Below are positions 6,521 through 34,510 of a stretch of DNA of 52,500 bases, piece by piece (positions within the stretch are counted from its first letter, which is position 1; the number at the start of each line of letters is the position of its first letter). The stretch comes from Verrucomicrobiota bacterium (GTDB lineage Bacteria; Verrucomicrobiota; Verrucomicrobiia; Chthoniobacterales; Terrimicrobiaceae): contig JAPLTF010000036.1 in the NCBI GenBank assembly GCA_026398275.1, forward strand, positions 1-52,500. Direction: 5' to 3'. Both the position numbers and the translations under genes were made by a program. The notes below the pieces were generated by a model. The model searched no databases, was not told where the DNA came from, and was given only the letters and a program-made list of their open reading frames with translations.

Positions 6521-7041
6521 GGCTCGGGAGTAAACGACATTCGCGTCCGTCAGGCAAAGGGAGATTCGCAGTCGCTTCCCGGAGCCGGTCTTCGGCAGCG
6601 GGCGCGGGACGCTGAGCGGACAGGTCCGCCTGAACACGGCGGATATCATTCTCAACACGGTCTCACAAAGCGGCGGGCAGCTCCGGTTCGAGGATTTCAC
6701 CCCGCTGCCCTGCGGGGATCCGAATTGCGCGACGATCGGCTACCTGCTCCGGACGCCGGACGGGGTCCGCTCGGTGAGCGATTTTCTGGATTTTCAAAGC
6801 GTGCAGGGATTTCTGCGCGACCGGGTCCGGTACGCTCGAGGCAGATTTCGTTCAATTCCCTTTTGATGACGCTATAAAGTTCACCCGTCCGTCGAGTCTG
6901 ACCATTTCCCAGTCGAAGGCGTTCGGATATCCGATGCGGAGGGAGAGGCGATACAGGCTGTTTGGGTTGAGCCATTCGATCTTGTCGTGTCGCGCACCAA
7001 TTGACCCGGGGGCGGCGGGCTGATAGAGGTGGAGGTTTTCC
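6521..7041. other. Gene-poor stretch before ileS
   Basis: Apart from the radical SAM remnant, no gene can be supported. A minus-strand frame covering 6852-7091 (79 codons) has an unremarkable composition and runs into the ileS start, so I do not call it. The ileS ribosome binding site (GGTGGAGG, about 7027-7034) lies at the right end. The promoters of both divergent genes must be here. No T-box-like leader was recognised. Confidence 0.5.
6600..6866 (+). pseudogene. C-terminal remnant of a radical SAM protein
   Basis: In the + frame that ends at TGA 6864-6866, the translation from about 6618 reads VRLNTADIILNTVSQSGG, then RFEDFTPLPCGDPNCATIGY and a short tail. This matches the C-terminal end of MoaA-like radical SAM proteins related to MJ0619/tetraether synthase, where a (P/L)PCxxPxC motif followed by a tyrosine is typical. 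There is no start codon and no radical SAM CxxxCxxC core. The fragment is cut by the divergent M20 gene, so it is the tail of a lost gene. Assignment is from motif memory only. Confidence 0.5.
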
Positions 7042-9768
7042 ATGAGCGGATACAAACACACCATCAAGCTGCCGAAGACGGATTTTCCCATGAAGGCGGG
7101 GCTGGCCCAGCGCGAGCCGGAGATGCTCGCGAAGTGGGAGGGCGACGGGCTTTACCGGAAAATCCAGGAGGCCCGGAAGGATCGGCCGCTCTATGTCCTG
7201 CACGACGGGCCGCCGTTCGCGAACGGCGATGTCCACATGGGGACGGCGCTGAACAAGATCCTGAAGGATTTTGTGGTGAAGTCGCGCTCGATGGCCGGGT
7301 TCCGGGCCCCGTTCATCCCGGGCTGGGATTGCCACGGGCTGCCGATCGAGTTCCGCGTGGTGAAATCCTCCGCCGGGCTGACGCCCGTCGAGGTCCGCCG
7401 CCGGTCCGAGGAATACGCGCGCAAATTCATCGACATCCAGCGCGCGCAGTTCCGGCGGCTCGGGGTGCTTGGAGATTGGGACCACCCGTATCTCACGCTC
7501 GATCCCGCATACGAGGCCGACATCATCCGCTCGTTCGGGCGTTTCGTGGAGGCGGGGCTCGTCTATCGCAAGAAGAAGCCCGTGCTTTGGAGCACGGGAG
7601 CACAGACCGCGCTGGCCGAGGCGGAGGTCGAATACCAGGACAAAACCTCTCCGGCGATTTTTGTTTTGTTCCCGCTCGCGAGCGGGGAGCTTGCCGGCAA
7701 GGCATCGGTTGTGATCTGGACGACGACGCCATGGACGCTGCCCGCCAACCTGGCGATTGCGATCCATGCGAAGCACACGTATTCCGCCGTGCGGGTCAGG
7801 CTCAACGGCTCGGAGCAAACGCTCGTGATGGCCGGGGCGCTCGTGGAAGGGTTCTGCTCGGCGACCGGGGCCGAAAAGATTGCGATCGAAAAAACATTTC
7901 CGGGAACCGAACTGGAAGGCCACCTTGCGCGGCACCCGTTCCTGGACCGCGCCGCGACGATCTACGCGGCGGACTTCGTGACCCTCGATGCCGGCACCGG
8001 CTGCGTCCATATCGCGCCCGGGCACGGGGAGGACGACTACAAGCTCGGGCTCGAGCACAGCCTTCCGCTGCTATCGCCGGTTGATGACAACGGCCGGTTT
8101 ACCGAGGAGTGCGGGCTGCCGGATTTTGTCGGCAAAAATGTTTTTGAGGCGAACGAGGGAATCATCGCGCTGCTCCAGGAAAAGGGAGCGCTCGCGGGGC
8201 GCGAATCTTATCAGCACAGCTATCCGCATTGCTGGCGGTCCAAGACGCCGGTCATCTTCCGCGCAGTCGAGCAATTTTTTATCCGGATCGATTCCATCCG
8301 CGCGGAGGCGCTCGCGGAGATCGACTCGGCGAAATGGCTTCCACACTGGGGCCGCAACCGGATCCGTGGGACCGTCGAGTCGCGCCCCGACTGGTGCATC
8401 TCGCGCCAGCGGACCTGGGGGGTTCCGCTGCCGGTCTTCTACGATGGGAACGGCGATCCGGTCCTTGATCCGGAGACGATCGCGAAGGTCGCGGATATTT
8501 TTGCGGAGCGCGGCACGAATTCGTGGTTCGAACTCGGCGACGAGGAATGGGCGAAGCTCGTCGGGCTGCCGGCTGGCGTGACCCGCCGGCACGACACGCT
8601 CGACGTGTGGATCGACTCCGGGCTCAGCCATGAGGCGGTCCTGCGCCGCCGGCCCGAGCTCGCGTTCCCGGCCGACCTTTACCTCGAGGCGACCGACCAG
8701 CATCGCGGGTGGTTCCAGAGCTCGCTCATGACCTCGGTGGCGATGAATAAAGTGGCGCCGTATCGCGCGGTGCTCACGCATGGGTTCGTCGTCGACATGG
8801 ACACGAGGAAGAAAATCTCGAAGTCGGCGCAGGGCGGATACCAGAAGCCGACGGAGGCGGATCACTATGTTGGAAAATACGGAGCCGACCTCCTTCGCCT
8901 GTGGGTCAGCAGCGTGAACTTCACCGACGACGTGCCATTTTCCGAAGAGATCTTCACGCGGCTCTCCGACGCCTACCGCAGGATCAGGAACACGCTGCGC
9001 ATCCTGCTCGCGAACCTGCACGACTACGACGCGTCCCGCCCGCCCGCTCCGGAGGACCTGACATTTGTGGACCGCTGGATTCTGGCGCGCCTGCAGGAGG
9101 TCGTCGGGACGTGCGCCGAGGGCTACGAGAGCCTGGAGTTCCACCGCGTTTACCACACGATCAACCAGTTCTGCGCGGTCGATCTGAGCAGCCTGTATGT
9201 GGATATCACCAAGGACCGGCTGTATTGCGACAAGGGGGATTCCGCGCGCCGCCGCGCCACCCAGTTTGCGATGCACAAGGTGCTGGATGCCTTGATCCGC
9301 CTGCTCGCGCCGATCCTGGCCTTCACCGCGGAGGAGGCCTGGGGGTATTTCCAAAAGGATTCGTCCGTCCACCTGCAGCTGTTTCCGGAGCCCGATCCCG
9401 CGTGGACAAACGCCGATGCGCTCCGGGAGATGGGCCGGCTGCTCGAGATTCGCGGGCTGATTTCCCAGACGGTCGAGAAGATCCAGAAGGCCGGAGAGAT
9501 CGGGAGCGCGCTGGAGGCGAGGATCTCCCTCACCGTGCCGGCGGCGGATCTGGCTTTGCTGGACCCGCTCGGCGGGGAGTTGGAGGAGCTGTTCATCCTG
9601 AGCAACCTTGGCGTCGCTTCCGGCGGAGAAGCCGGGGTGACGGCGACAAAAACCTCCGCCGTCCGCTGCGAGCGATGCTGGCGCCACCGGGATGAAGTCG
9701 GTTCGAGCGCGGCGCACCCGACGTTGTGTTCGCGGTGCGAGGAGGCTGTTGCGGACATGCCTGCATGA
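7042..9768 (+). CDS. ileS: Isoleucine-tRNA ligase
   Basis: This class I aminoacyl-tRNA synthetase charges tRNA-Ile and edits valine. The 908 residues show, in order, the HIGH-type motif PPFANGDVHMGTALN (about 54-68), the editing domain (TTTPWTLPANLAIAI near residue 229), the KMSKS-type loop RKKISKSAQG (about 592-601), the anticodon-binding helical domain, and a C-terminal zinc finger with CERCWRHR and CSRCEEAV. The length is typical of bacterial IleRS. The start ATG is preceded by GGTGGAGG. Its stop overlaps the lspA start (ATGA), the common ileS-lspA pairing. Confidence 0.98.
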   Translation: MSGYKHTIKLPKTDFPMKAGLAQREPEMLAKWEGDGLYRKIQEARKDRPLYVLHDGPPFANGDVHMGTALNKILKDFVVKSRSMAGFRAPFIPGWDCHGLPIEFRVVKSSAGLTPVEVRRRSEEYARKFIDIQRAQFRRLGVLGDWDHPYLTLDPAYEADIIRSFGRFVEAGLVYRKKKPVLWSTGAQTALAEAEVEYQDKTSPAIFVLFPLASGELAGKASVVIWTTTPWTLPANLAIAIHAKHTYSAVRVRLNGSEQTLVMAGALVEGFCSATGAEKIAIEKTFPGTELEGHLARHPFLDRAATIYAADFVTLDAGTGCVHIAPGHGEDDYKLGLEHSLPLLSPVDDNGRFTEECGLPDFVGKNVFEANEGIIALLQEKGALAGRESYQHSYPHCWRSKTPVIFRAVEQFFIRIDSIRAEALAEIDSAKWLPHWGRNRIRGTVESRPDWCISRQRTWGVPLPVFYDGNGDPVLDPETIAKVADIFAERGTNSWFELGDEEWAKLVGLPAGVTRRHDTLDVWIDSGLSHEAVLRRRPELAFPADLYLEATDQHRGWFQSSLMTSVAMNKVAPYRAVLTHGFVVDMDTRKKISKSAQGGYQKPTEADHYVGKYGADLLRLWVSSVNFTDDVPFSEEIFTRLSDAYRRIRNTLRILLANLHDYDASRPPAPEDLTFVDRWILARLQEVVGTCAEGYESLEFHRVYHTINQFCAVDLSSLYVDITKDRLYCDKGDSARRRATQFAMHKVLDALIRLLAPILAFTAEEAWGYFQKDSSVHLQLFPEPDPAWTNADALREMGRLLEIRGLISQTVEKIQKAGEIGSALEARISLTVPAADLALLDPLGGELEELFILSNLGVASGGEAGVTATKTSAVRCERCWRHRDEVGSSAAHPTLCSRCEEAVADMPA

Positions 9769-16027: not shown

Positions 16028-18196
16028 TCAGGGGCGGTCGAGGCCGAGGTCGGTGCGGAGGAGTCCGTTCCGCGGCTCGAAGAAGTAGCGCACGTAGAGC
16101 CCGATCGAGCCCTCGTTGTAATCCGCCGTGACCGCGTAGCCGAGCTGTCCGCCGATCAGCCAGTTCGGCGAGATCATGTAGGCGCCCTGCGCGCCGATCA
16201 GGCCGATGACCGTGCTGGATTCCTCGGCGGCATACATCTGGCCGTCCTCATTCAGCGGGAAATACGGGCTGGAGGCCTGGCGGTTGTTTTGAACGCCGAG
16301 ACCGAGCGTTCCGGCGGCGATCCACTTCCGGCCTTCGGTGGTCAGGAACTGGCCCTGGATGAGGACCTGCGCGAGGTATTCCGGGCTGAAGTAGCCGCCG
16401 TTTCCATACGTGAAATGGTTCTGGTTGTTGTCGTAGCTTTCGTAGGAGGCGGCGAGTCCGACGGTGACGTATTCAAAATTTTTGACCTCGAATTCATAGG
16501 CGAGCGCGGCGGTGCCGGAGAGGTGGGTGTTGCTCTTGACGTTGGTTCCGTCAAGAATCCCGTAGCTTCCATTCACGTAGATCGTCCATTTCGGAGCGAT
16601 GGACCGGAAGAGCGAGACCCGGCCGCCGGCCTCGGTGACTCCTCCCCAGTTTTTTCCGGTATAGGGATCCTCCATCCCGATGTAGGAGAGAATGCTTTCC
16701 TTGACCGCCTTGGAGTAGAGTTCGGCCTGGAAATAACCTTTTTCGTCGCGGTAGATCATCCCGATATCCCCGACCGGCTTCGCGTTGAGCGGGCCGCCCG
16801 AGGGGGTGATGCCGAACGTGACATACCACGTGATCCAGTCCTGATATTCGAAGTGGACCGAGAAGTCGTAGAGGTTGCCGTAGGAAGTGACCGGCGTCTT
16901 GAGGTAGGGCGTATAGGTTTTTGGATACTGGCCTACGACGGCTCCGTTGGGGAGGTCGCCGGAGTTCAGGGTGATGCGCGAGATCTGCGCGGTCAGCATG
17001 GTTTTGTTGGAGGGATAGATGCGGCCGGAGATGACCGGGATGGCCGCCATGTTCAGCTTGCCCTCGCCTTCGGTGCCGGACTTGCTGGAGAAGATGAATC
17101 CGGCCGCCACGCTCGGGCTCGTGTAGTTTTCGAGGACGCGGTAAATCTTTTCGCCGCCGGCGCCCGCCGATGCCACGTAGAGGTTGGCCTTGAAATACCG
17201 TTTGGCTTCCGAGGTCCCATACATGCCCTTGAGCGGGCCTTTGACCGTTTCGCCGATGGTGTCGACCTTTTCGTAGTTTCCCGTTTTGGCCAGGGAGGCA
17301 TAAAGGCCCTGTGCGGCATTTTCGTTTGGCGAGGAGCGGTAGAGCTTTTCGAAGAGCTCGGAGGATTTCGCGTAATCCTTCGTGTAATAATAATCCCAGG
17401 CGAGAACCGTCTGCTCGTTGCGGCTGAGCGGGCGGGCCTGCGATGCCGTGAGCATGAGGTCGCGGCTCCGTGGATAATTTTTCGCCTCGTAGGCCTCCAC
17501 CGCGCGGCGCGATGCGATGTCGCCTTTGAGGACGCGCATCTTCGGGTAGCTGTCCCCGCGGAAGTTCACGATGGCCTCGGCGCTGCTCAGGTCGCCCTCG
17601 CGGAATTTTGAAAAGGCCAGCCCGTAGGCGGCTTCGCCTGTGCCCGGGCTCCATTCGAGAGCCTGGTTGAACCACATGCCTGCGGAGGAATATTCTCCGC
17701 GGTTAAAGTATGCCCAGGCCGCCTTTGTGGCGAGCGCGGCATCCTGCTTTTCGGTCGCCTGAGTGACCCATGCGCTGATCTGGGCCTGGCTGACCGCAGG
17801 CTGCTGCGGCTCCGAGGTGACGACTGTGGCGGGGCGAGCCGGGGTGGCTTTCCTGGCGACCGGGGTTGCCATCTGGAAGGGGGTCGGCGTCGGTTGAGCG
17901 AGCAGGGCGGCATCCGAGGGGAGCACGTCCGTCGTGGTCGGCGTGGATTGGATGGCCGGGGCCGGAATGTCCGGGGGGAGGAAAACCGGAGACCGGGGTG
18001 TCGAGGCACCAGCCGGCTTCGGCATGCCGGGGACCACTGGCGTGAAGAGGGATGGCGTCGGCGTGGGCTTGGACTCCTCGTCCGTGGGGAGTGCGATGGA
18101 CTCGGGCTGTTCCGAGGACATGATATCCTGGGACTTCAGGGGCAGAAGACCGCAGAAACCCGCAACGAAAATGGATAAGCTTCCTTTGATGCTCAC
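16028..18196 (-). CDS. bcsC: BcsC-like outer-membrane cellulose export protein (short form)
   Basis: BcsC is the periplasmic TPR scaffold plus outer-membrane beta-barrel through which cellulose leaves the cell. This 722-residue version starts at GTG 18196, preceded by GGAGG and overlapping the bcsZ stop (GTGA). It has a signal peptide (IFVAGFCGLLPL), a Pro/Thr-rich stretch to about residue 115, a few TPR-like repeats (about 130-320, e.g. YFNRGEYSSAGMWFNQALEW) and then the BCSC_C barrel (about 350-722), with many alternating aromatic strands, VTFGITPSGGP and terminal YVRYFFEP. E. coli BcsC is about 1150 residues with 19 TPRs, so the scaffold here is much shorter. The frame upstream of 18196 is antisense to bcsZ and is not included. 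Confidence 0.88.
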   Translation of the reverse strand: MSIKGSLSIFVAGFCGLLPLKSQDIMSSEQPESIALPTDEESKPTPTPSLFTPVVPGMPKPAGASTPRSPVFLPPDIPAPAIQSTPTTTDVLPSDAALLAQPTPTPFQMATPVARKATPARPATVVTSEPQQPAVSQAQISAWVTQATEKQDAALATKAAWAYFNRGEYSSAGMWFNQALEWSPGTGEAAYGLAFSKFREGDLSSAEAIVNFRGDSYPKMRVLKGDIASRRAVEAYEAKNYPRSRDLMLTASQARPLSRNEQTVLAWDYYYTKDYAKSSELFEKLYRSSPNENAAQGLYASLAKTGNYEKVDTIGETVKGPLKGMYGTSEAKRYFKANLYVASAGAGGEKIYRVLENYTSPSVAAGFIFSSKSGTEGEGKLNMAAIPVISGRIYPSNKTMLTAQISRITLNSGDLPNGAVVGQYPKTYTPYLKTPVTSYGNLYDFSVHFEYQDWITWYVTFGITPSGGPLNAKPVGDIGMIYRDEKGYFQAELYSKAVKESILSYIGMEDPYTGKNWGGVTEAGGRVSLFRSIAPKWTIYVNGSYGILDGTNVKSNTHLSGTAALAYEFEVKNFEYVTVGLAASYESYDNNQNHFTYGNGGYFSPEYLAQVLIQGQFLTTEGRKWIAAGTLGLGVQNNRQASSPYFPLNEDGQMYAAEESSTVIGLIGAQGAYMISPNWLIGGQLGYAVTADYNEGSIGLYVRYFFEPRNGLLRTDLGLDRP

Positions 18197-19272
18197 CGCT
18201 TTCCTCCCATGGATTCCCTCACTGCCAGCTTTGTCAGCAGTTTGAGGCTCGCGGAAAAATATGATTCGTCGGGCATCACGGGAGGAATATCCCGGACAGT
18301 TAAGCGGTTTCCGGATTCGCAGGCTAGGACAAAACGTGCAATTGCTTGCATGCCCGGGAGGGAGGGATCGGTGCCAAAAGTGTTCGTCTCCAGATTCACG
18401 GTGGAGGGGATCCTGGACAATTCCGGAAATGGTTTCCAGAAATTTGCGCAGGGCTGGAGGAGCGGGGATTTCGGATTTTCCCAGGCCAGGTGCAACGGGA
18501 CGCGGATGGCATTGTATCCGAAGTCCGGGGGGAACTTTGTCTTCAGGCTGAAGGTCTCTCCGTCCAGCACCCAGTCCGGAGTCAGCAGCCACTTGCCGAA
18601 GCGGGCCTCGCCGAGCATTTTGAGCCCGTTTAGCGAGAGCGCATCCCACCCGCTGCCCGGAAACGCTTTTGAGAAGGCCGCGAAGGCGGGAAGGATATAG
18701 TAGGAGGGATTGAGGAGAATGCCTTTGTCGTCGACGAAGCCTTCGACTCCCGGCAGAAGAACCGGTCCCTGTCCGGTGTCCCTGACGCATGTCCGCCGCA
18801 GGTCCACGAGGATCTCTGCGGCGGCCTGCTGGTAGGCGTAGACTCCCCAGCGCTTCGCCGCGCGGACCAGCGCCCAGGCCACCAGGATCTCCGCGTCGCT
18901 GGCATTGTTGGCATCCGCAACGCTCCCTCCGCCGTCCGGCCCCGGCTGCCAGAGCCAGGAAAGCAATTTGTCCTCCTTGCGGGTCTGGAGGTTTTCTTTG
19001 GTCCACTTCCAGATTTTGTCGAATGTGGATCTGTCCCCGTAGGCCTCGGCCAGGAGCATGCCGTATCCCTGCCCCTCGCTGTGGGTGATGCCGCCGTTCC
19101 CGTTGTCGATTACCCGGCCCTCGGGCGAGACAAACTGCCTTTTGAAGAGCGCCCAGTCATGCCGGGGCAGACGCCAGGGATCGGACATCACAAACAGCCA
19201 GTAACAAAGGCCGAGAAGAGCCAGAGCCGCCAAGGCGATTCCCGCAAGTTGCCGGCCGCGTTTTTTTCCCAT
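18193..19272 (-). CDS. bcsZ: Periplasmic endoglucanase, GH8
   Basis: This family 8 glycoside hydrolase trims beta-1,4-glucan during cellulose export. The 359 residues start with a membrane anchor or uncleaved signal (LAGIALAALALLGLCYWLFV). The catalytic acid is Glu66 in ITHSEGQGYGM, and the second conserved acidic segment is GSVADANNASDAEI (Asp120, Asp126). Other GH8 features are GYNAIRVPLHLAW and the WLLTPDWVL strand. Its ATG directly abuts the bcsB stop (0 bp), and its TGA overlaps the bcsC GTG, matching the bcsB-bcsZ-bcsC order of classical operons. Confidence 0.93.
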   Translation of the reverse strand: MGKKRGRQLAGIALAALALLGLCYWLFVMSDPWRLPRHDWALFKRQFVSPEGRVIDNGNGGITHSEGQGYGMLLAEAYGDRSTFDKIWKWTKENLQTRKEDKLLSWLWQPGPDGGGSVADANNASDAEILVAWALVRAAKRWGVYAYQQAAAEILVDLRRTCVRDTGQGPVLLPGVEGFVDDKGILLNPSYYILPAFAAFSKAFPGSGWDALSLNGLKMLGEARFGKWLLTPDWVLDGETFSLKTKFPPDFGYNAIRVPLHLAWENPKSPLLQPCANFWKPFPELSRIPSTVNLETNTFGTDPSLPGMQAIARFVLACESGNRLTVRDIPPVMPDESYFSASLKLLTKLAVRESMGGKR

Positions 19273-21636
19273 CTACTCCGGATGTTCACGCTTCCGCAGG
19301 GCCGCGCGGGCGCCGAGGGCGAGCAGGACGATCAGCACGATGACAAGCACCGCAAAGAACCACGGTTGCTGGTCGAAACGGCTCGAGACCCTCGTGACCA
19401 GGTTGGTGGCCTTGTAGATGAAGTCATTTCCGACCTTCGCGACGGCGAGCGAGTTCGGCCGCGTGCTCCAGACCGCGAGATCTCCGGCAAGCGAGTCCCA
19501 GAATTCCCGCTCCTGGAGCATGTTGACCCCGGCGAGAAGGTTGTCCGCATCCCAGGCCGTGACGACCGTGACCGGGTAGCCGGTGTGGAACGGGGACTCG
19601 AATTGCGCGGCGACGATGTCGTCGATCAGGTCGGCCGTCATGTTCAGGTTTGCAGTCGAGGGCGGCTCGGGCTCGTTCTTGTCGCCGGACTCGCCTTTCA
19701 CTTTTTGAACGAATTCCTCGATCGGGGAGGTGGCATATTTTTCCGGCTTCGGGCTGGTGCTCACGATGTAGCGCATCTTGCCGACCTGGAGCGGCGAGAC
19801 CGGGGCCTTGGCCAGGATTTCCGGCGGGATCTCATCGCGCGGCCCGACCACCAGAAGGCTCTTCCTGCTGTGCGGGAGCTTTGACGAAATTTCCGTATTC
19901 GAGAGGAGCGCGCCGGAGATCTGGGCCATCTTTCCCATGAGTGTCCATGCGGCGCTGGCGGTTTCGGGAGCGCGGCCTCCGACGAACACCGCGGTCTCGA
20001 TCCCGTCCGGCGGGGACGAGTAGGGGAAGGCCGTCTGGGAAAAGAGTCCGAGGTTCGGCAGGCGGGCCTTTCTCAGCGCCTTCGGAAACACGAAATCCGA
20101 ATCATCAAAGAGCGTGAACTGGAGGTTCTCATCCTGCAGGATTTCGCACTGGTTCGAGACGAGCGGCACCATTTTCGGGGTCAGCAGGAGCTCGTTGAGC
20201 CCCGGTTGGAACGCCTGCATCGGCAGGTAGAGCCGGTGGTCGGAGTGCATCGAGCCCTCCACATCCTTCAGCCGGATGGCGGTCTGAAATTGATTATTGA
20301 TGAAAACGTTGAAGACGGAATCCTTCCGGAACCCGGCGCCGTAAACAAAGTGCAGGCGCAGCTCGGCGTTGCTCTGATCCTCGCGCGAGACGTCGCCGGG
20401 CATGTAGAGCTTCAGGGTGTAGGTGCCGGTGTTCCAGCCCTTGATCGTGGTGGTTTTGAATCCGAGCTGGCGGAAGCTGTAGAGCCCGGGCAGGCGGAGC
20501 GGCGCGTTGCGCACGTAGGCGTTCTCCGGCATCGTCATCTGGTCCACGATGGCGTATTTCGAGTCCGGCAGCGGGAAGTTGACCATGCCGAGAGCCAGCG
20601 CGGTCTGCTTGACCTCCTGGGCGCTCCGGCCGCTGACGATGATCATGCAGTGGGTCGCGTCCCCGGGGAGCGTCTTGATGGCCAGAAAACTTCCGTTGAT
20701 CGTTCCCACCTCGGTGGCCGTGAGGAAGGGGGAAAGCTCGTTCATGGTCCCGATGACGATGTTGTCCATGCCGGGGCGGAGCGCCGTGGCGGTGGAAACC
20801 CTGAACGGCTGGTTGTTAACCGCGAGGGCGATGCCCTGCGTCACGATGGCTCCCAGGGAGAGATGCTCATCGGTCATCGATCCCGAGGAGGGCATGCAGA
20901 CGTTGAACTGGTAGGGAATCCAGAGCTTTTCATCCACCCACCAGCGGAGGAACGAAAGGCGCTCGGTCACGGGCTTCCACTCGCCCGTGGTGGTGAGGTA
21001 GGACTGGTCGGGATTGATTTCGGTGTAGAGCTCGGGAGCAGCGGGGTCCTCGCACTTGTAGGTGTAGTGCTGCGCCACGATGAACTGCAGGCGGTTGAAA
21101 CCGGTCTGCACCAGATTCACGGGGATCTCGATGTCGACGTCGTTGAACGGCTTTGTCCGGTCGAGGTAGAACTGGGCGACGATCACGTCGTTCATCACCA
21201 CCCGCAGCACCGAGCGCTCGCTCAGCAGGGCGATCGAGTTGGTGAACTTGAGGCGCATGCCGTAGCTCTTGGCCTGGAAGCGCGCGCTCTGCGGAACGAA
21301 CACCGTGTAGATGCTGCTCGCGTTGCGGAGCATCATCGGGGAGTCCAGCGGGATCAGTCTCCGCAGGGGGAGGCGAAACGATTGGATCCTGTCCTTGGGG
21401 TTGGGAGCATCCGCCTGAGCGCCCAGCGGCGTGATGGCGGTGACCGGTGAGGCCGGAGCCATCGGCACGGCCAGGCCGGTCGGAACAGAAGGCGCAGCGG
21501 GGGGGATCACCGGCACGCGGGCCTGCTGTGCGGATAACGGGAGCAGGGTGGCCAGCAGCAGCGCCAGGACGGCGTGAGCTGCGAGCAGCCGGAGGCTTCG
21601 GGTGGGATTTGTTGTCATGTTCATGGTGTGTTTCAA
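19273..21636 (-). CDS. bcsB: Cellulose synthase regulatory subunit BcsB
   Basis: BcsB is the periplasmic partner of BcsA, anchored by one C-terminal helix and required for synthesis and translocation. The 787 residues have a signal peptide (LLAAHAVLALLLATLLPLSA), a large periplasmic region with alternating carbohydrate-binding-like and flavodoxin-like domains (motifs RLPLRRLIPLDSPMMLR, YTYKCEDPAAPELYT, SSGSMTDEHLSLGA) and a final membrane helix (WFFAVLVIVLIVLLALGARA, about 757-776). Length and order are typical. It overlaps bcsA by 4 bp (21633-21636), as expected for a fixed stoichiometry with BcsA. Confidence 0.95.
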   Translation of the reverse strand: MKHTMNMTTNPTRSLRLLAAHAVLALLLATLLPLSAQQARVPVIPPAAPSVPTGLAVPMAPASPVTAITPLGAQADAPNPKDRIQSFRLPLRRLIPLDSPMMLRNASSIYTVFVPQSARFQAKSYGMRLKFTNSIALLSERSVLRVVMNDVIVAQFYLDRTKPFNDVDIEIPVNLVQTGFNRLQFIVAQHYTYKCEDPAAPELYTEINPDQSYLTTTGEWKPVTERLSFLRWWVDEKLWIPYQFNVCMPSSGSMTDEHLSLGAIVTQGIALAVNNQPFRVSTATALRPGMDNIVIGTMNELSPFLTATEVGTINGSFLAIKTLPGDATHCMIIVSGRSAQEVKQTALALGMVNFPLPDSKYAIVDQMTMPENAYVRNAPLRLPGLYSFRQLGFKTTTIKGWNTGTYTLKLYMPGDVSREDQSNAELRLHFVYGAGFRKDSVFNVFINNQFQTAIRLKDVEGSMHSDHRLYLPMQAFQPGLNELLLTPKMVPLVSNQCEILQDENLQFTLFDDSDFVFPKALRKARLPNLGLFSQTAFPYSSPPDGIETAVFVGGRAPETASAAWTLMGKMAQISGALLSNTEISSKLPHSRKSLLVVGPRDEIPPEILAKAPVSPLQVGKMRYIVSTSPKPEKYATSPIEEFVQKVKGESGDKNEPEPPSTANLNMTADLIDDIVAAQFESPFHTGYPVTVVTAWDADNLLAGVNMLQEREFWDSLAGDLAVWSTRPNSLAVAKVGNDFIYKATNLVTRVSSRFDQQPWFFAVLVIVLIVLLALGARAALRKREHPE

Positions 21637-23864
21637 ACGGATTGCGGCGAGGTTTTAAAGGATTTTCCGGCGCGCCTGGTGTTGGCGACAAGCATGACGT
21701 GGCCGAAATGCTGCAGGGAAAACCGCACGCCCAGTGCCAGGAGGAAGATCGCGCTGCGCACGACCCCGATCCTCCGCTCGCGCGTGGTTTGGAAATCCAC
21801 CCAGCGCTGGCTGCTGCCGTTGACCAGGAAAACCTTGAGCCTCATCTCCTCGAGCGACGTGTGCTCAAATTGTCCTCCCACAAAAAGCGCCCCGGGCTCG
21901 CGCCTGGCATTCCGGATCACGATGTGGATCGGCGTGTCCGCGAACTTGGGATTGTCCGGAATCGTCATCTCCAGCGCCGAGCCCTCCACAAACAGCGACT
22001 CAAACGCCGGATCCAGCACGAGCCCGCAGCCCTGGATTGAGAAATCGCGGATCTCCGCGGTGTAAAACTTTTTTCCCAGCTTGATGCGCGCGGTCATCGC
22101 GACCGGCATGCGCGGGGTCGCCCGCCTTTGCCGCCGCTCGAACAGCGTTCCCATGGCCGCGAGCAGGATGAACACGTTGAATGTCGCCCAGAGCATCGTG
22201 ATGCCGGTCGGGAAGCTCTCGGCCGGCGTGACCACAAGCCGCGCCACGCCGAAGATCAGGGCGATGGTGTTGAAGATCAGAAAAAAGTAAAACGGCCTGG
22301 CCAGCGGGCTGATATAATCCTCCCCGAGCGTCTCGCCCTTGGCGGTCACCTTGAATGTGGGGGCGCGGGGATTGAGGAAGACCTTCAGGATCGCGGGCAG
22401 CGTGTAGACCGACTGGATCAGCTCGTAGAGCTCGGACACGAACGACCAGCGCACCTTGCCGAACAGGAAATCGGAAACCATGAAGACGGCGAGAAGGTGC
22501 GGCGCGGCAAAGGCGGCGAAGTCGATGAAGTTGGCGTCGTAGATTTTCAGGCCGAAAATCAGGAAGCAGAGCGGCGCGAGCATGAACACGACCCTCGCGT
22601 AGGCGAAGAACCAGAAAAAGCAGCTGCTGAAGTAGCAGAGCCGCTGCGGCAGCGTCAGGCCGGGGATCAGGAGCGGGTTCTTGAGCAGGAAGATCTGCAC
22701 CATCCCCTGCGCCCACCGGATCCGCTGCCCGATGAAGCTGGTGAGGGTTTCCGGCGAGAGGCCGGCGATCATGGGGATGCCGATGTAGGCGCTGTTGTAG
22801 CCGCGCGCATGGAGCGCCAGGGCGGTCTCGGCGTCCTCCGTGATCGTGTCCCCCGAGATGCCGCCGGTTTCCATGAGGCACTTTCTGCGCAGCACCGCCG
22901 CCGACCCGCAGAAGAACGCGGAATTCCAGTAGTCCAGGCCCTTCTGGATGACCTTGTAGAACATCTCGTTTTCGCCCGGCATCGTGGAAAATGTCTGAAG
23001 GTTTTTTTCGATCGGGTCCGGGTTGACGAAGAAGTGCGGGGTCTGGACGAGGAAGAGCTTGGGGTCGTGCCGGAACCACCCCACCGTATTCTGCAGGAAG
23101 TCGCTGGTCGGCGCATGGTCGGCATCGAAGACCACGACGAGCTCGCCGCTGCTGAACTGCAGGCCGTTGTTGATGTTGCCGGCCTTGGATCCGATGTTCT
23201 TGTCGCGGGTGATGTATTGGGCGCCCCAGCGGCTGCAGAGCGCCTGCAGCTCCAGCCGCCGGTGCTTTGCGGCGGCGGCGAGTTCGGGATCCTCGGACCT
23301 GCAGCGCTGGTCGGTGCCGCCGTCGTCCAGGAGGTAGACCTTGAGCTTGCTTTTGGGATACTCCATGTCGAGGGCCGAGAGCAGGGTGACCTCGAGCAGG
23401 TCCGGCTCCTCGTTGTAGGTGGGGATCATCACGTCCACCGTGGGGAGCAGATCCTCGTCTTTGGGGAGCGGGAGCGGCTTTCGCTCCAGCGGATCCACAT
23501 TCACAAAGATGCTCAGCAGATAGACGATGAACCCGTAGAGCTCCGCGAAATACAGCAGCATCGCGAAGAGAAAGCTGACCGGATCGTGGTAGGTCAGCGT
23601 GGTGAACGTCCGCCAGTAGAAGTAGTCGACCGAGAGGAACGCCGCCAGGATCAGGAACACCACGCGCACGGTCTCCTGCTCGTTGAAATAGCGCAGGATC
23701 AGGAACGCCATCATCGCGACGACGGCGACCGAGATCTGGGTCCGCGTCGTGATGCTGGACGCGGCGGACACCATCACCAGAAGGAAAACCGCCGACAGCC
23801 CCACGGGCAGCCATCCGCGCAGCTGGCTGCCTGCCGGGAGGTGGAATGTTTTCGGAAATGTCAT
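21633..23864 (-). CDS. bcsA: Cellulose synthase catalytic subunit BcsA with PilZ domain
   Basis: This inner-membrane GT2 enzyme polymerises UDP-glucose into beta-1,4-glucan and threads it through its own channel. The 743 residues show N-terminal membrane helices (about 17-121), the GT domain with DDG (180-182), DAD (247-249), TED (342-344) and QRIRW (380-384), further membrane helices (about 395-560) and a C-terminal PilZ domain. The PilZ region carries the arginine-rich c-di-GMP motif (ERRQRRATPR) and DFSIQGCG, so activation by c-di-GMP is expected. It lies between a small tail-anchored protein gene and bcsB. The bcsA start is 62 bp after that gene, the only real gap in the operon. Confidence 0.97.
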   Translation of the reverse strand: MTFPKTFHLPAGSQLRGWLPVGLSAVFLLVMVSAASSITTRTQISVAVVAMMAFLILRYFNEQETVRVVFLILAAFLSVDYFYWRTFTTLTYHDPVSFLFAMLLYFAELYGFIVYLLSIFVNVDPLERKPLPLPKDEDLLPTVDVMIPTYNEEPDLLEVTLLSALDMEYPKSKLKVYLLDDGGTDQRCRSEDPELAAAAKHRRLELQALCSRWGAQYITRDKNIGSKAGNINNGLQFSSGELVVVFDADHAPTSDFLQNTVGWFRHDPKLFLVQTPHFFVNPDPIEKNLQTFSTMPGENEMFYKVIQKGLDYWNSAFFCGSAAVLRRKCLMETGGISGDTITEDAETALALHARGYNSAYIGIPMIAGLSPETLTSFIGQRIRWAQGMVQIFLLKNPLLIPGLTLPQRLCYFSSCFFWFFAYARVVFMLAPLCFLIFGLKIYDANFIDFAAFAAPHLLAVFMVSDFLFGKVRWSFVSELYELIQSVYTLPAILKVFLNPRAPTFKVTAKGETLGEDYISPLARPFYFFLIFNTIALIFGVARLVVTPAESFPTGITMLWATFNVFILLAAMGTLFERRQRRATPRMPVAMTARIKLGKKFYTAEIRDFSIQGCGLVLDPAFESLFVEGSALEMTIPDNPKFADTPIHIVIRNARREPGALFVGGQFEHTSLEEMRLKVFLVNGSSQRWVDFQTTRERRIGVVRSAIFLLALGVRFSLQHFGHVMLVANTRRAGKSFKTSPQSV

Positions 23865-23925: not shown

Positions 23926-24630
23926 TCACCGCAAAATGTTTGCCAGGACGTAGCCGATGACGGCGGCCATGAGGATGAGCATCATCACCGCCCCGCGCGT
24001 GATCGGCTTGATCTCCGCGCTGGCTTTTTCCAGCTTCACAATCAGCGCCTCGGATTCCTTTTTCACGACATCGAGCTTCTTGGTGCAGTAGTCGATGTTC
24101 TCGTGGTAGGCCTCGATTTTTTTCAGCGTCTCCTCGACGTCGGTGACCTCGAGCTTTTTCTGGAGCTCCTGAAATTGGAGTGTGATCCGGTCGAGCGAGG
24201 GGAGAAGCGAAATCCGGATCGCATCCGAGAGGACCTCCGCGCTGATCGGTGGGGCGGTCGCGGCCGGGGTTTCCTGGAGCTTGGCCAGCACCTTTTCCAA
24301 CTCGGGCTGAATGGACTGCCGGATGGAATTTGCCAGGGCTTCCGCGTTGACGGGAGCCGCCGGTCCTCCGCTCCTGGGGATCTCCTGCACCTGCGCGACC
24401 AGGCGGTCGATCGAGGGCTGGAGCGTCGAGCGCACGGCATCCGAAAGCGCCTCGGGGCTGATGAGCGGCTGGGCCGGACGCCCGTCCGCGGCGGGGGCAT
24501 GGACGACCACCGGCTGGCGGTAGTAGATGTCCAGCAGGTCAATCAGCGCGAGCGCGGGATCGTTGTCTTGGATGTTGTGGCGTCGCTGCCACTCGAGGAC
24601 TCTGGCGCGGATCTCGGGATTGTCGTTCAT
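23926..24630 (-). CDS. Tail-anchored coiled-coil protein with three internal repeats, cellulose operon
   Basis: This 234-residue protein is not a family I recognise. From ATG 24630, residues 1-45 form a small helical N-terminus, followed by three near-repeats of about 30 residues with ~36-residue spacing (57-85, 94-122, 128-156). Each fits the pattern I-x-x-E-x-L-x-(D/N)-(A/S)-(V/I)-R-x-(S/T)-(L/I)-x-P-x-(I/L)-(D/E)-(R/K). A coiled coil (about 156-208) and one C-terminal membrane helix (213-233) complete it. It should sit on the cytoplasmic face of the inner membrane. Its start overlaps the stop of the second ParA-like gene (ATGA) and it precedes bcsA, so a link between those ATPases and the synthase is inferred. 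Confidence 0.75.
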   Translation of the reverse strand: MNDNPEIRARVLEWQRRHNIQDNDPALALIDLLDIYYRQPVVVHAPAADGRPAQPLISPEALSDAVRSTLQPSIDRLVAQVQEIPRSGGPAAPVNAEALANSIRQSIQPELEKVLAKLQETPAATAPPISAEVLSDAIRISLLPSLDRITLQFQELQKKLEVTDVEETLKKIEAYHENIDYCTKKLDVVKKESEALIVKLEKASAEIKPITRGAVMMLILMAAVIGYVLANILR

Positions 24631-25367
24631 GGAAGCAGGATGGATTGGACGTCGAACAGTTGGTTGTTCAGCTCCCGTGTATATTCCACCAGACGCTGGC
24701 GGTCGAGAAGGTTCAGCGTGTTGGAAGCGAGCGCCTGGGGGATCGTCCAGGAGTTGAGCTGCAGGATGGTTGTGAGATGTTCGGAGAGTTTCCGCAGGTC
24801 GATTTCTTTGGCCCCGATGCGGAGCAGGTCCTCCCTGGCCCGGCTGTTCTGGTAGATCCTCAGCGACTGGCTCTGCTTGTAATTTTTCACGACCAGCCAC
24901 TCGGCCTGGTTGCCGACCCGCCTCGCGACCTCGCCCGCCTGGAAGACCGTGTCCTTGTCCTCCTCGATGATCAGAACGAGGGTCACCGACAGCCCGAGGC
25001 TGTCCTTCACCTTCAGCAGGTCCGTCTCCTCCATCCAGTCCATGAAGATCCGCTGCTGGGCGCCGACGCCGTCCACCAGGACCACGTCGGTGGAATCGAG
25101 CGCCTCCACGATGAGGTCGAGGTTTTCGCTGTGGCCGATGTTCAGGAACTGGGCCTCGGGATAAAACCTGGTCAGCGTGCTGTTGTTGAAATCCGGATCA
25201 AACGCGATGAACGACCGGTGCGCCTCGCGCAGCCACTCGATCAGGCGCACGCAAAAAAACGATTTTCCGACCCCGCCCTTGTCGATCGCCGTGAGGATCA
25301 GCCGCTTGTTCTGCAAGGCCTGAGCCTGCGGGGCATGGGGTGAGGGGTGGGTGGTGAACGACGTCAT
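24627..25367 (-). CDS. ParA/MinD-type P-loop ATPase 2 of the cellulose operon (BcsQ-like)
   Basis: This 246-residue cytoplasmic protein carries the deviant Walker A IDKGGVGKSFF (Lys30 is the signature lysine), a switch I region FDPDFNNSTLTRF and a switch II VVLVDGVGAQ. The first line of its family resembles TraL-like and BcsQ-like SIMIBI ATPases. Unlike BcsQ of E. coli it keeps Ser rather than Thr after GK. It is paralogous to the gene just upstream, sharing DKDTVFQAGE and the R(Q/E)(E/D)LLR(I/L)GA(G/K)EI segment. It overlaps both neighbours by 4 bp. BcsQ-type ATPases localise or assemble the Bcs machinery at the pole in enterobacteria, and a similar role is inferred here. Confidence 0.8.
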   Translation of the reverse strand: MTSFTTHPSPHAPQAQALQNKRLILTAIDKGGVGKSFFCVRLIEWLREAHRSFIAFDPDFNNSTLTRFYPEAQFLNIGHSENLDLIVEALDSTDVVLVDGVGAQQRIFMDWMEETDLLKVKDSLGLSVTLVLIIEEDKDTVFQAGEVARRVGNQAEWLVVKNYKQSQSLRIYQNSRAREDLLRIGAKEIDLRKLSEHLTTILQLNSWTIPQALASNTLNLLDRQRLVEYTRELNNQLFDVQSILLP

Positions 25368-26308
25368 ACTTCCTCGGGGGCAATCCGCGGGCGGACAGAA
25401 CCTTTCCCGGGTCCGGCATGCGTTCCGGCTCCGGCATGGGGATTCACCCGCGGGAGAAGCACGGCTTCCATCGCGGCGAATTGTTCAAACAGGCGCTCCT
25501 GGTAGGACCGCAGGCGGTGCCGCTCGAGAAGCGACAGGGATTTGTCCTGCATCAATCCGGAGAGCGACTTGCTCGTGCGCTGCATGATGCTGAGAAGGTT
25601 CCATGGCAGGCGGGCGATCGTGATCTCGCCCGCGCCGAGGCGGAGCAGCTCCTGGCGGGTTTTGCTGTTGTCGTAGATCTCCGTGGCGGGGCTGGTCTTG
25701 AGGCTCCGGACGACCAGCCAGTCCACGCTTGCTCCCAGCCGCCTGCAGAGCTCTCCGGCCTGAAAAACCGTGTCCTTGTCCTCCTCGACAAGGCAGACAA
25801 ATGTCACGCCGACCTCGCCGAGGGATTTGTCTCCGGACACTCCGTTGTTGCCGATCCAGTCCACGAGTTCAGGGATCGCCGCCGCCGATCCATCCACCAG
25901 GATCAAATCCGCCTCCTCCATCCCGTGAAGGATCTCCTGAAAGCCATCCCCGTCGGTCGTTGTGAGAAACCGCGTCTCCGGCTGAAATCGCGTCAGCGTC
26001 CCGCTCGACCAGTCGGTGTCAAACGCCAGGGCGCGAAGGTTCTTCTCGACAAGCCAGTCCGCAAGATTGATGAGGAAGAACGATTTTCCGACCCCGCCCT
26101 TCGGCGTCGCGGCGATGATGATCCGCCGGCTGACCGGGCGCTCCGTGAAAGCGGTTCTCGCCGTGGAGGAGGGCAGGATCGGGGGATACTCGCCTTGGTG
26201 ACGCGCGGATTCCCGGGACCCAAACCGCCCCAAGGGCGACTGCCCGGCACGACGGAACGTTTCGCTCCGCAAGGGATCGCTCATCGAAAATCCAGTTTCA
26301 AAATTCAT
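25364..26308 (-). CDS. ParA/MinD-type P-loop ATPase 1 of the cellulose operon (BcsQ-like)
   Basis: This is the first gene of the operon, preceded by a strong ribosome binding site (GGGGAGGAGGAATATACG before the ATG at 26308). The 314 residues have a ~60-residue unstructured N-terminus, then the deviant Walker A ATPKGGVGKSFF (Lys70), switch I FDTDWSSGTLTRF, switch II LILVDGSAAAIPE, and a Pro/Gly/His-rich tail. It is clearly related to the next gene over the ATPase core but longer at both ends. The pair could form a heterodimer or have diverged tasks. No ParB-like gene is nearby, so a role in plasmid or chromosome partition is unlikely. Confidence 0.8.
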   Translation of the reverse strand: MNFETGFSMSDPLRSETFRRAGQSPLGRFGSRESARHQGEYPPILPSSTARTAFTERPVSRRIIIAATPKGGVGKSFFLINLADWLVEKNLRALAFDTDWSSGTLTRFQPETRFLTTTDGDGFQEILHGMEEADLILVDGSAAAIPELVDWIGNNGVSGDKSLGEVGVTFVCLVEEDKDTVFQAGELCRRLGASVDWLVVRSLKTSPATEIYDNSKTRQELLRLGAGEITIARLPWNLLSIMQRTSKSLSGLMQDKSLSLLERHRLRSYQERLFEQFAAMEAVLLPRVNPHAGAGTHAGPGKGSVRPRIAPEEV

Positions 26309-28458: not shown

Positions 28459-30921
28459 TCACAGCGGCGCGACGCCCGCGAGCCTGGCCGCCAGCGCGTC
28501 CCTTGTGAATGGCTTGGTGAGGAAGTCGTCCATTCCTGCGGCGAGGCAGCGGTCGCGGTCGCCGGGCATCACGTTTGCGGTGAGCGCGATGATGGGCACA
28601 TGGGATCCGGCGCCAGCCTCCGCTGCACGGAGCTTTTGAGTGGCCTCAAGCCCGTCCATCACCGGCATCGCCATGTCCATGAGGATGGCGAAGAATTTTC
28701 CCGGCACGAACGCCTTGACCGCCTCGGCTCCATCGGTTGCAAACTCGGTGAGGTAGCCGAGGCTCTCGAGCATTTTTCCGGCGAGGATCCTGCTGGTCTC
28801 CTCGTCATCCGCCACGAGCACGATGGCTTTGGCAGATGGGCCGTGCGCCCCGGCACCCCGGCGGGCGGGCGATGCGCCGCCGGCGGCCGCCAACAGAGGG
28901 AGCGGCACGGAGCCCACCCCCCCGGCAGAGGCACCCCCGGCGGGGGAATCCAGCGGCAGCCTGAAGGTGAACGTGCTGCCTTTGCCCGGGGTGGAGGTGA
29001 CGGTAAGGGTGCCGCCCATGGCTTCGGCGAGGCGCTTCGAGATCGCCAGCCCGAGCCCGGTGCCCCCGAAGCGGCGGCTCGTCGTCGAGTTGGCCTGCGC
29101 GAATGGCTTGAACAGGCGTCCGAGCGTCTCGGAGGAAATCCCGATGCCCGTGTCCTCAATCGAGAAATCCAGAAAGGGGCGGCCCTCAGAATCCCCGGGC
29201 AAAATGCGGAACACAACCGATCCGCTCTGTGTGAATTTGAGCGCGTTTCCGAGCAGGTTGATGAGGATCTGGCGGATCCGGCGGGCGTCGCCGGTGATTT
29301 GCTCCGGGACGCCGGCAGCGATTTCGCAGCGGAATTCGATTCCCTTGTCGGCGGCGGCCTGCCGGATCGCGGCGTCCGACGACTCCACGAGAGCTGCGAC
29401 GTTGCACGGTGCGGGCTGGATCGCCAGCGATCCGTGCTCGATACTGGAGAAATCGAGGATGTCGTTGACGATGGCGAGCAGATGCTCGCCGCTGTTGCTG
29501 ATCGTTTTGGCGAAGGATTTCTGTTCGTCGTTGAGCGGTGTGTCGGCGAGGAGTTCCGTGAACCCGAGCACGCCGTTGAGCGGGGTGCGCAGCTCGTGGC
29601 TCATCACGCCGAGGAACTCGCTCTTTGCGGCGGCGGCGGCCTCGGCGCGGCGGAGCGCCTCGTTCCGTTCGTCTTCCGTCTTCTTGCGCAGGAGAGCCTC
29701 TCCGATGTGCCATGCGACCCCTTCGAGGATCTCCACGGTTTCGAGGGTGAAGCATCCTTCGCGGCGGTCGTTGAGTTGGATCAGGCCGGCGATCCGGTTC
29801 TGCATCCGGATCGGGACCAATGCGACCGAGGCGTAGCCGAAGTGGATGCACTGGTTGCGGGGATGGTGCCGGGGATCCTCGCCGGGCGGGACGTCCAGCA
29901 GCGCGCGCGAGTCGTTTGTCCAGCAGCTCCCGCCCTTTGTGAAGAGCGGATTCGTCGGGTCGGTAAGTCCGGAAAGGACCAGCCCGCAGGTGCATTCCAG
30001 GCAGGCACTTCCGTCCTTGTCCCGGCACAGCCCTCCATCTGCGGCGCGGTCCACCAGCGAGTTTTCCGTCCGCAAGAACTCCTCGGAGAAGCCCTCTTGA
30101 ACGAAATACGGAAAGTCCTCGCCGTCCTGCAGCCGGATGCCCACGGCATCGAACCCGGTCCGCGCCTTCAGGGTGGCGAGCACGCGGCTGATAAAATCCT
30201 GCCGGTCTCCCGACTCGTTGAGGATTCGCAGGACTTCGCGATCCATGCCGCGGTATGCTTCCTTCCGCTTGCGCGCGCTGATGTCGCTGAGCGCGATGCG
30301 GCACGATGGGGCGCCGGTTTCGTCGGTAGCGACCGTGGCTTCGAGGCAGCTCCAGAAGGGCGGGCCGTCCGGCCTCACCAGGCGCAGCTCGCACTCCTGC
30401 GGCTTGCCGGTGTCCATGAGCCGCTTCCGGCACGTGTAGTAAACATCCTGATCTTCCTTGAGGACGAACCGGGAGAACTGCTGTTGGACCAGCGCGCTGC
30501 GGGCGACGCCGAGGAGGGAGGTGGCGGTGAGGTTCCCCTCGGTGATCAGCCCCTTCTCGCTGACCGTGCAGTAGCCGACCGGAGCCAGGTCGTAGAGGTC
30601 GAAATACCTTGCCCGCGAGGCATCCAGCTCCGCTTGCGCCTGCCGCAGCTCCTCGTTCTGCATCTCCAGCTCGATCTGGTGGACGCGCAGCTCGTGGAGG
30701 ATCGTGCGCAGGGTTTCCGGCGAGAGCGCATCGATGTGCTCCTGGGACTGGGCGATCATTTCCCGCAGAGCCTCCTCGGCTTGCAGGCGGAGCAGCGGAT
30801 TGGAGCCTTTCCGGGCAGGGACCATCGGCGAAAGATCGGCGGGGTCGGAAGAAAAATTGGCGAGGCTGTAGAACTCCGCTGCAGCAGGAATCTCCGGCTC
30901 GCTATTTTTCTTGGTGTTCAT
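28459..30921 (-). CDS. Hybrid sensor histidine kinase (PAS-GAF-HisKA-HATPase-REC)
   Basis: This 820-residue, apparently soluble protein starts at ATG 30921. Order: N-terminal helical segment (about 45-105, HELRVHQIELEMQNEELR), PAS domain (about 105-215, YDLAPVGYCTVSEKGLI), a GAF-like domain (about 230-410) with six cysteines (299, 307, 310, 312, 333, 358; CLECTCG and RNQCIHFGY), HisKA with His442 in MSHELRTPLNG, HATPase_c (GNALKFTQSG, EDTGIGIS, GGTGLGLAIS), a Pro/Gly linker, and a receiver with Asp749 in ILMDMAMPVMDG. The output partner is unknown because there is no HPt or regulator gene nearby. It is downstream of the CheB-CheR-PAS gene on the same strand. A longer frame to 30996 starts inside a repeat and is rejected. 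Confidence 0.92.
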   Translation of the reverse strand: MNTKKNSEPEIPAAAEFYSLANFSSDPADLSPMVPARKGSNPLLRLQAEEALREMIAQSQEHIDALSPETLRTILHELRVHQIELEMQNEELRQAQAELDASRARYFDLYDLAPVGYCTVSEKGLITEGNLTATSLLGVARSALVQQQFSRFVLKEDQDVYYTCRKRLMDTGKPQECELRLVRPDGPPFWSCLEATVATDETGAPSCRIALSDISARKRKEAYRGMDREVLRILNESGDRQDFISRVLATLKARTGFDAVGIRLQDGEDFPYFVQEGFSEEFLRTENSLVDRAADGGLCRDKDGSACLECTCGLVLSGLTDPTNPLFTKGGSCWTNDSRALLDVPPGEDPRHHPRNQCIHFGYASVALVPIRMQNRIAGLIQLNDRREGCFTLETVEILEGVAWHIGEALLRKKTEDERNEALRRAEAAAAAKSEFLGVMSHELRTPLNGVLGFTELLADTPLNDEQKSFAKTISNSGEHLLAIVNDILDFSSIEHGSLAIQPAPCNVAALVESSDAAIRQAAADKGIEFRCEIAAGVPEQITGDARRIRQILINLLGNALKFTQSGSVVFRILPGDSEGRPFLDFSIEDTGIGISSETLGRLFKPFAQANSTTSRRFGGTGLGLAISKRLAEAMGGTLTVTSTPGKGSTFTFRLPLDSPAGGASAGGVGSVPLPLLAAAGGASPARRGAGAHGPSAKAIVLVADDEETSRILAGKMLESLGYLTEFATDGAEAVKAFVPGKFFAILMDMAMPVMDGLEATQKLRAAEAGAGSHVPIIALTANVMPGDRDRCLAAGMDDFLTKPFTRDALAARLAGVAPL

Positions 30922-31033
30922 GGATGGTGGGTGTGATGGGATTTCCAACCGCAGAAACAGAATATCCAAGCCGTATGATGCGAACTGAAAAGTCAATGAG
31001 ACGATCCTGCAAATCGAACTTTCTGTCCTTCAT
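30902..31033 (-). pseudogene. Truncated copy of the four-helix-bundle gene 5' end
   Basis: The first 21 codons (MKDRKFDLQDRLIDFSVRII and R) are identical to those of the intact gene at 31152-31523, because they lie in the 89-bp direct repeat. The frame then leaves the repeat into unrelated residues and stops at 30902, just inside the kinase gene. It may be a fossil, or may still be translated and couple to the kinase start. Confidence 0.7.

Positions 31034-31543: not shown

Positions 31544-31550
<7 letters not shown>
31462..31550. repeat. 89-bp direct repeat, copy 2
   Basis: The partner of 30972-31060. It includes the start of the intact four-helix-bundle gene and its leader. The stop codon of the CheB-CheR-PAS gene (31544-31546) lies in its last bases. 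Confidence 0.95.

Positions 31551-34510
<2,960 letters not shown>

Follow-up and report, generated by a model that had tools for sequence, protein, structure and literature searches.

In Escherichia coli, BcsQ, an ATPase of the SIMIBI/ParA type, is encoded upstream of bcsA, and the ATPase complex is tethered by the single-pass membrane protein BcsF, which recruits BcsE2R2Q2, so that it touches and holds the PilZ domain of the cellulose synthase subunit BcsA (PMC11470070, PMC7439463). Plasmid R388 depends on StbB for conjugation when StbA is present, and also for the formation of plasmid foci close to the polar membrane (PMC3098194). The IncP ATPase TraL and the MobD proteins are also of ParA type, with a KGGxxK[ST] Walker A sequence, and in IncP plasmids the next gene encodes TraM, a small protein with an N-terminal GIxxxxDDP motif, a helical middle and a C-terminal membrane helix. 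Here we compare these systems with the cellulose operon of a Verrucomicrobiota bacterium (order Chthoniobacterales, family Terrimicrobiaceae; assembly GCA_026398275.1), carried on a stretch of 52,500 nucleotides of contig JAPLTF010000036.1 (the window). The operon is headed by two ParA-type ATPases (ATPase 1 and ATPase 2) and a tail-anchored protein, together termed the triad.

The triad shares with TraL–TraM and MobD the ATPase type and motif, with full-length profile similarity, and with IncP TraL–TraM a following gene for a small protein of the same build (motif xGIxxxDDP) and tightly packed or overlapping genes. It differs in having two ATPases and no TraK/StbA, oriT, relaxase or coupling protein, in its chromosomal location and linkage to bcsA-B-Z-C, in a juxtamembrane motif of its own and in the tail peptide of ATPase 1. 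The position upstream of bcsA recalls E. coli; however, similarity to BcsQ is not significant beyond the P-loop region, and E. coli has one ATPase and no TraM-like tail-anchored counterpart. The fold and signature motifs are also those of MinD, ParF and MipZ, although the sequences are nearer to TraL and MobD and the link to the membrane would be made by a separate tail-anchored protein. We propose, with a probability of about 60%, that the triad is a conjugation-type ATPase/membrane-anchor pair, its ATPase duplicated, which acts in a chromosomal cellulose operon as a membrane-anchored switch with BcsA–BcsB as its new cargo. At the level of sequence, the family relationship of both the ATPases and the membrane protein to conjugation modules is established, as is the conserved linkage to bcsA-B-Z-C.

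The triad and the cellulose operon

The operon is a seven-gene block on the minus strand that follows rpoA and rplQ and runs from ATPase 1, ATPase 2 and the tail-anchored gene into bcsA, bcsB, bcsZ and bcsC (Table 1). Coordinates and profile matches agree with the layout read by the first-pass annotation, including the 4-bp overlaps between the two ATPase genes (25364-25367) and between ATPase 2 and the tail-anchored gene (24627-24630); a gap of 61 bp separates the latter from bcsA. BcsA matched the CelA model TIGR03030 with 866 bits (cut-off 699) and has a PilZ domain, and with BcsB, BcsZ and BcsC alongside it the block has the composition of a cyclic di-GMP-dependent cellulose synthase operon. 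No Pfam or NCBIfam match to the subtype accessory proteins BcsD/P, BcsE/F/G or BcsK was obtained among the seven operon proteins scanned, and no description of the triad, whether as a named bcs subtype or otherwise, was found in the open-access papers searched.

The three genes had been proposed to form a unit tied to the cellulose operon, and their distribution upholds this. Searches of fetched contexts by tblastn placed the triad immediately upstream of bcsA in nine relatives, and a tenth has it split across two contigs; with the window this gives 11 genomes from four genera and two families, and the triad is directly upstream of bcsA in 11/11. Across 213 genomes of the order, BcsA exceeded the cut-off in 13 and one further genome has a split gene; the paired ATPases are present in 11 of these 14 and in none of the other genomes. 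Among 388 sampled genomes of the phylum the pair was seen only in the window genome and in G033, and the reach beyond Verrucomicrobiota was a close-relative scan of 84,980 species plus plasmids, in which the species gave five matches, all verrucomicrobial. All three triad genes are under purifying selection comparable to that on bcsA, with ratios of nonsynonymous to synonymous substitution (dN/dS) of 0.04-0.12 within genus, similar to bcsA, at a dS near saturation. The rpoA-rplQ genes adjoin the operon only in the window's genus, and the block therefore stays together at different chromosomal sites.

Table 1. Features of the triad and the cellulose operon (positions in the window)
Feature	Position	Strand	Description
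ATPase 1	25364-26308	minus	314 aa; N-terminal extension, ParA-type domain with KGGVGKS, variable linker, conserved tail RPRIAPEEV
Walker A of ATPase 1	26081-26101	minus	KGGVGKS, residues 70-76
C-terminal peptide RPRIAPEEV of ATPase 1	25367-25393	minus	conserved; candidate docking peptide
ATPase 2	24627-25367	minus	246 aa; ParA-type
Walker A of ATPase 2	25260-25280	minus	KGGVGKS, residues 30-36
Tail-anchored protein	23926-24630	minus	234 aa
N-terminal domain of tail-anchored protein, EIRARVLEWQRRHNIQDNDPALALIDLL	24511-24630	minus	part common to conjugation modules
Repeat 1 of tail-anchored protein	24376-24465	minus	residues 56-85
Repeat 2 of tail-anchored protein	24262-24351	minus	residues 94-123
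Repeat 3 of tail-anchored protein	24157-24246	minus	residues 129-158; copy kept in all genera
Juxtamembrane motif YHENIDYCTKKLDVVKK of tail-anchored protein	24058-24108	minus	residues 175-191
C-terminal membrane helix of tail-anchored protein	23932-23994	minus	about residues 213-233
bcsA	21633-23864	minus	cellulose synthase catalytic subunit with PilZ domain
bcsB	19273-21636	minus	
bcsZ	18193-19272	minus	family-8 endoglucanase (GH8)
bcsC	16028-19006 (listed ORF)	minus	TPR and outer-membrane porin

The listed open reading frame (ORF) of bcsC overlaps bcsZ, and the true start of bcsC must therefore lie further downstream. Two large signalling genes near the operon (28459-30996 and 31544-34510) were read from their sequence as a histidine kinase with a receiver domain and a CheB-CheR-like fusion. 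The same genome carries, on another contig (C77:21589-23286, locus L063), a long ORF for a second, divergent BcsA-like glycosyltransferase (~30% identity), near which the triad and other bcs genes were not detected.

Kinship with conjugation modules

The two ATPases are 41% identical, in agreement with the paralogy reported earlier, and profile-profile comparison (hhalign) placed both with the ATPases of plasmid transfer. ATPase 2 aligned with the single-copy ATPases of verrucomicrobial conjugation modules (E 2.5e-54), with cyanobacterial MobD-like proteins (E 1.8e-21) and with TraL (E 1.6e-17), these matches covering 214-227 columns, and ATPase 1 aligned with the conjugation ATPases at E 3e-45; similarity to TraL and MobD extended over the whole domain for both (213-221 columns, E 1.8e-16 to 1.8e-21). 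The KGGVGKS sequence of the two window proteins conforms to the classical KGGxxK[T/S] Walker A of StbB-like ATPases (PMC3098194). Their scores against the NCBIfam TraL model, 25.4 and 24.5 bits, fall below its cut-off of 360 bits. A ParA/MinD-type fold had been expected and is borne out by the AlphaFold model of ATPase 2 (pLDDT 83), whose nearest folds are ParF and MipZ; a sequence search of solved structures returned only weak ParA-like and spurious matches, and none for the membrane protein.

One explanation for the gene order could be that the ATPases arose by duplication and divergence of BcsQ, with the third gene encoding an accessory protein particular to the lineage. The superfamily is the same, as is the position upstream of bcsA, albeit with the tail-anchored gene in between, and BcsQ entered our tree as a single very long branch for which grouping with the pair was not rejected (approximately unbiased (AU) test, p 0.36). 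Neither ATPase was listed by the BcsQ model TIGR03371 (cut-off 157.85 bits) at E up to 1, however, and at E 1e-3 that model listed other ParA-like loci of the same genome and not these two. Alignment to BcsQ was confined to the surroundings of the P-loop (29 columns for ATPase 2, probability 23%; 49 columns for ATPase 1; range 23-37%) as against the near full-length matches to TraL and MobD, and the membrane partner is one that is common to conjugation modules. BcsQ identity was rejected because the model was not reached and the match was short and restricted to the P-loop, and we regard duplication of BcsQ as very improbable; the contrast of one BcsQ copy with two that the first-pass annotation implied does not apply. 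On their profiles the ATPases are relatives of the TraL/MobD ATPases of conjugative and mobilizable plasmids.

Maximum-likelihood analysis grouped the cellulose ATPases in a single clade (97/88), surrounded by relatives that are either of conjugation type or orphans. ATPase 1 was itself one clade (100/99); ATPase 2 was not monophyletic in the best tree and its monophyly was not rejected by the data. The ATPase 1 and ATPase 2 sets each hold both carrier families, which by tree topology dates the duplication before the split of the two families.

The membrane protein leads to the same modules. Its N-terminal domain, EWQ[RK][RK]xxIxDxDPxxA, is common to the membrane proteins of conjugation modules, and the family matched these at E 3e-16 overall and at E 1.9e-17 for the N-terminal parts alone (hhalign), with negative reversed-profile controls. 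A blind, order-wide search with the membrane-protein profile recovered the 11 bcs loci and otherwise only loci in genomes with conjugation modules, nearly all of the latter directly downstream of a single-copy ATPase homologue in relaxase/coupling-protein modules, with an extra match at G062:C298. An N-terminal GIxDxDP domain, a helical middle, a C-terminal membrane helix and a gene directly after the ATPase are the features of a TraM-like partner, and all are present; the helix, as first read, has a Kyte-Doolittle mean of 2.48 over 19 residues. Plasmid TraM gave a weak match to the intermediate verrucomicrobial conjugation family (probability 81%, E 1e-5). The N-terminal domain and the ATPase partner are both shared with conjugation modules, and for this reason the domain is the predicted ATPase-binding part; most simply, it presumably binds the shared partner, and a role of the membrane protein as a docking platform, as first suggested, is plausible by homology. 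The three repeats of about 30 residues that had been noted are real, with every pairwise score exceeding those of all 1000 shuffles, but they are a genus-specific spacing: three copies are confined to the window's genus and other genera have one. A juxtamembrane motif, YHEGIDYCTKKLDVVKK, is nearly invariant in the cellulose-operon members, no such motif occurs in the conjugation members, and it is a candidate for contact with BcsA or BcsB. Pfam matches of the membrane protein to Snapin/Pallidin and RPW8 were rejected as coiled-coil driven and below the curated cut-off.

The closest single-copy homologues lie in a stereotyped module of a small helix-turn-helix (HTH) protein, the ATPase, a small membrane protein and a VirD4-like coupling protein, with a divergently transcribed MobF relaxase next to it. 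Both R388, where relaxase and coupling protein are divergent from stbABC, and the IncP traK-traL-traM set resemble this arrangement. It is in the verrucomicrobial MobF modules that both ATPases and the membrane protein have their nearest relatives, and the tail of the adaptor in these modules resembles that of ATPase 1; the modules differ in the single ATPase, in the presence of a DNA adaptor and transfer genes, and in a membrane protein of ~118 aa. The first-pass annotation had held that a broad occurrence of the ATPases away from cellulose genes would refute its proposal. This applies to the family, of which single-copy members accompanied by a membrane partner of this kind are widespread in conjugation modules, away from cellulose genes; it does not apply to the triad, since the pair together with its partner was seen nowhere but beside bcsA.

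Because relaxases and coupling proteins are the working partners of the closest homologues, the triad could also be the remnant of a chromosome/plasmid partition or mobilisation system left beside the cellulose genes by chance. When the flanks fetched around the bcs loci were searched with the order's own versions of the HTH adaptor, the relaxase and the coupling protein, no homologue was found, and the three-gene setting of StbB-like systems, where a DNA-binding TraK/StbA belongs to a leading region that also holds oriT and the relaxase, is not seen there. Retention of the block by four genera although its chromosomal site varies, purifying selection of the same strength as that on bcsA and the failure to find the pair without bcsA also argue against chance, which we consider the least probable of the explanations.

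Other arrangements of related ATPases were noted. One family (f16) carries a chromosomal KGNVGKS ATPase with a downstream partner (L086:6201-6920 and 6917-7744), near which no relaxase or coupling protein was matched; homologues match in L087, L089, L090 and L100, and a relative (L048:8144-9882) adjoins a MobF relaxase. TraL-like ATPases (GEKGGVGKS) also occur singly, with no evident membrane partner, at L049:8631-9323, L091:7907-8596, L092:7284-7988 and L094:7109-7918, that of L049 adjoining an integrase-like gene.

Proposed roles of the two ATPases and possible mechanism

ATPase 1 ends, after its variable linker, in RPR[VI][AP]PxxV in ten aligned genomes; in three of these the next gene does not overlap and the peptide is still kept, which argues that it is selected as protein. 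In 19 conjugation modules the gene at the corresponding place encodes the HTH protein, which likewise has a linker followed by a terminal RGPR[IV]ADP or a slightly altered form of it, and in further, more distant modules the tail reads RGP[KR][IL]ARD. In MobF modules (L064-L078, L045, L046, L093, L097) a disordered linker of the HTH adaptor leads into a strikingly conserved tail, RGPR[IV]ADP[RK]NL, which probably serves for docking to the ATPase. The resemblance is suggestive, and ATPase 1 may fill the adaptor slot. The signature lysines were first described as intact, and this holds for both window proteins; KGGVGKS is invariant in ATPase 2 of ten aligned genomes, whereas ATPase 1 of the LR76 genus (L038, L040, L041) reads KGGVGRT and has lost the P-loop lysine. 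E. coli BcsQ has RGGVGTT at this site, and P-loop decay seems recurrent in cellulose-linked ATPases. Taken together, the tail peptide of ATPase 1 and the lysine loss that affects ATPase 1 and never ATPase 2 suggest that ATPase 2 is the engine and ATPase 1 the adaptor. A more specific version, which we offer tentatively and rate as rather unlikely, is that ATPase 1 is a conjugation-type paralogue in the StbA/TraK position that acquired or inherited the adaptor's docking peptide (RGPR[IV]ADP to RPR[VI]xPEEV). A machine for positioning plasmid DNA would thereby have been redirected to a polysaccharide synthase; its conserved engine would consist of ATPase 2 and the tail-anchored protein, and ATPase 1 would be an exchangeable adaptor to the cargo.

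If the triad is a switch of conjugation type, as we propose, the tail-anchored protein would hold the ATPase at the inner membrane through the shared N-terminal domain and ATPase 2 would be the conserved nucleotide switch. ATPase 1, in the gene slot of the conjugation DNA adaptor and with a similar tail peptide, would pair with ATPase 2 and adapt it to a new cargo, the BcsA–BcsB synthase in place of plasmid DNA. The ATP-bound complex may then recruit or cluster the synthase or keep it in an active state, in analogy with the non-homologous BcsQ-BcsR-BcsE-BcsF system of E. coli.

Another possibility is an activation scaffold without movement or polar placement, in which ATPase 1 and ATPase 2 form a static heterodimer, locked by ATP, on the tether of the membrane protein; leaning on the PilZ domain, the heterodimer would stabilise the active state of BcsA, as BcsR2Q2 does. 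The membrane-protein tether that keeps E. coli BcsQ at the PilZ domain (PMC11470070, PMC7439463) would be a precedent, the degraded P-loops of LR76-genus ATPase 1 and of BcsQ suit a structural role, and the juxtamembrane motif YHEGIDYCTKKLD is specific to cellulose members. ATPase 2, by contrast, keeps every catalytic residue, which suggests that turnover matters, and the conjugation relatives act in localisation (StbB, PMC3098194). We regard a purely static scaffold as possible but unlikely.

Several observations tell against a switch of conjugation type. The likeness between the tails is short: against a background of 744 C-termini from fetched loci, some non-genes included, ATPase 1 tails rank 5th to 36th (4 to 35 score as high). 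A transfer from conjugation to cellulose synthesis would be the direction indicated by the tree, with a rooting that lacks strong support. R388 StbB resembles the paired ATPases at the P-loop only, and the StbB data are therefore a functional analogy; StbC of R388 had no match to the tail-anchored protein in profile comparison. The direct profile match between the cellulose-operon family and plasmid TraM was not significant, and the TraM link is for that reason stated through the verrucomicrobial conjugation proteins. The AlphaFold model of the membrane protein is poor (pLDDT 54). Three BcsA genomes were without the triad: G038 (L059, G038:C7), with bcsA-B-Z-C and ~1.5 kb of upstream sequence present; G007, with bcsA 300 bp from a contig edge and no ATPase found elsewhere in the genome; and G055, which is divergent and at a contig edge. 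The triad is therefore not essential to every such synthase. The G038 operon is a useful natural comparison.

Implications for cellulose synthesis and conjugation

We know of no positioning module shared between exopolysaccharide secretion and DNA conjugation. The relationships described here suggest that ParA-type ATPases were recruited to cellulose synthesis at least twice and from different sources, once as BcsQ and once as a TraL-like pair. The little-understood third protein of conjugation operons, in the TraM position, gains a second context, in which the N-terminal domain is the shared and presumably ATPase-binding part, and a candidate docking peptide comes to light, carried by the plasmid adaptor as well as by ATPase 1. 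In soil-type Verrucomicrobiota, a DNA-positioning device thus appears to have been re-used for the control of a polysaccharide synthase.

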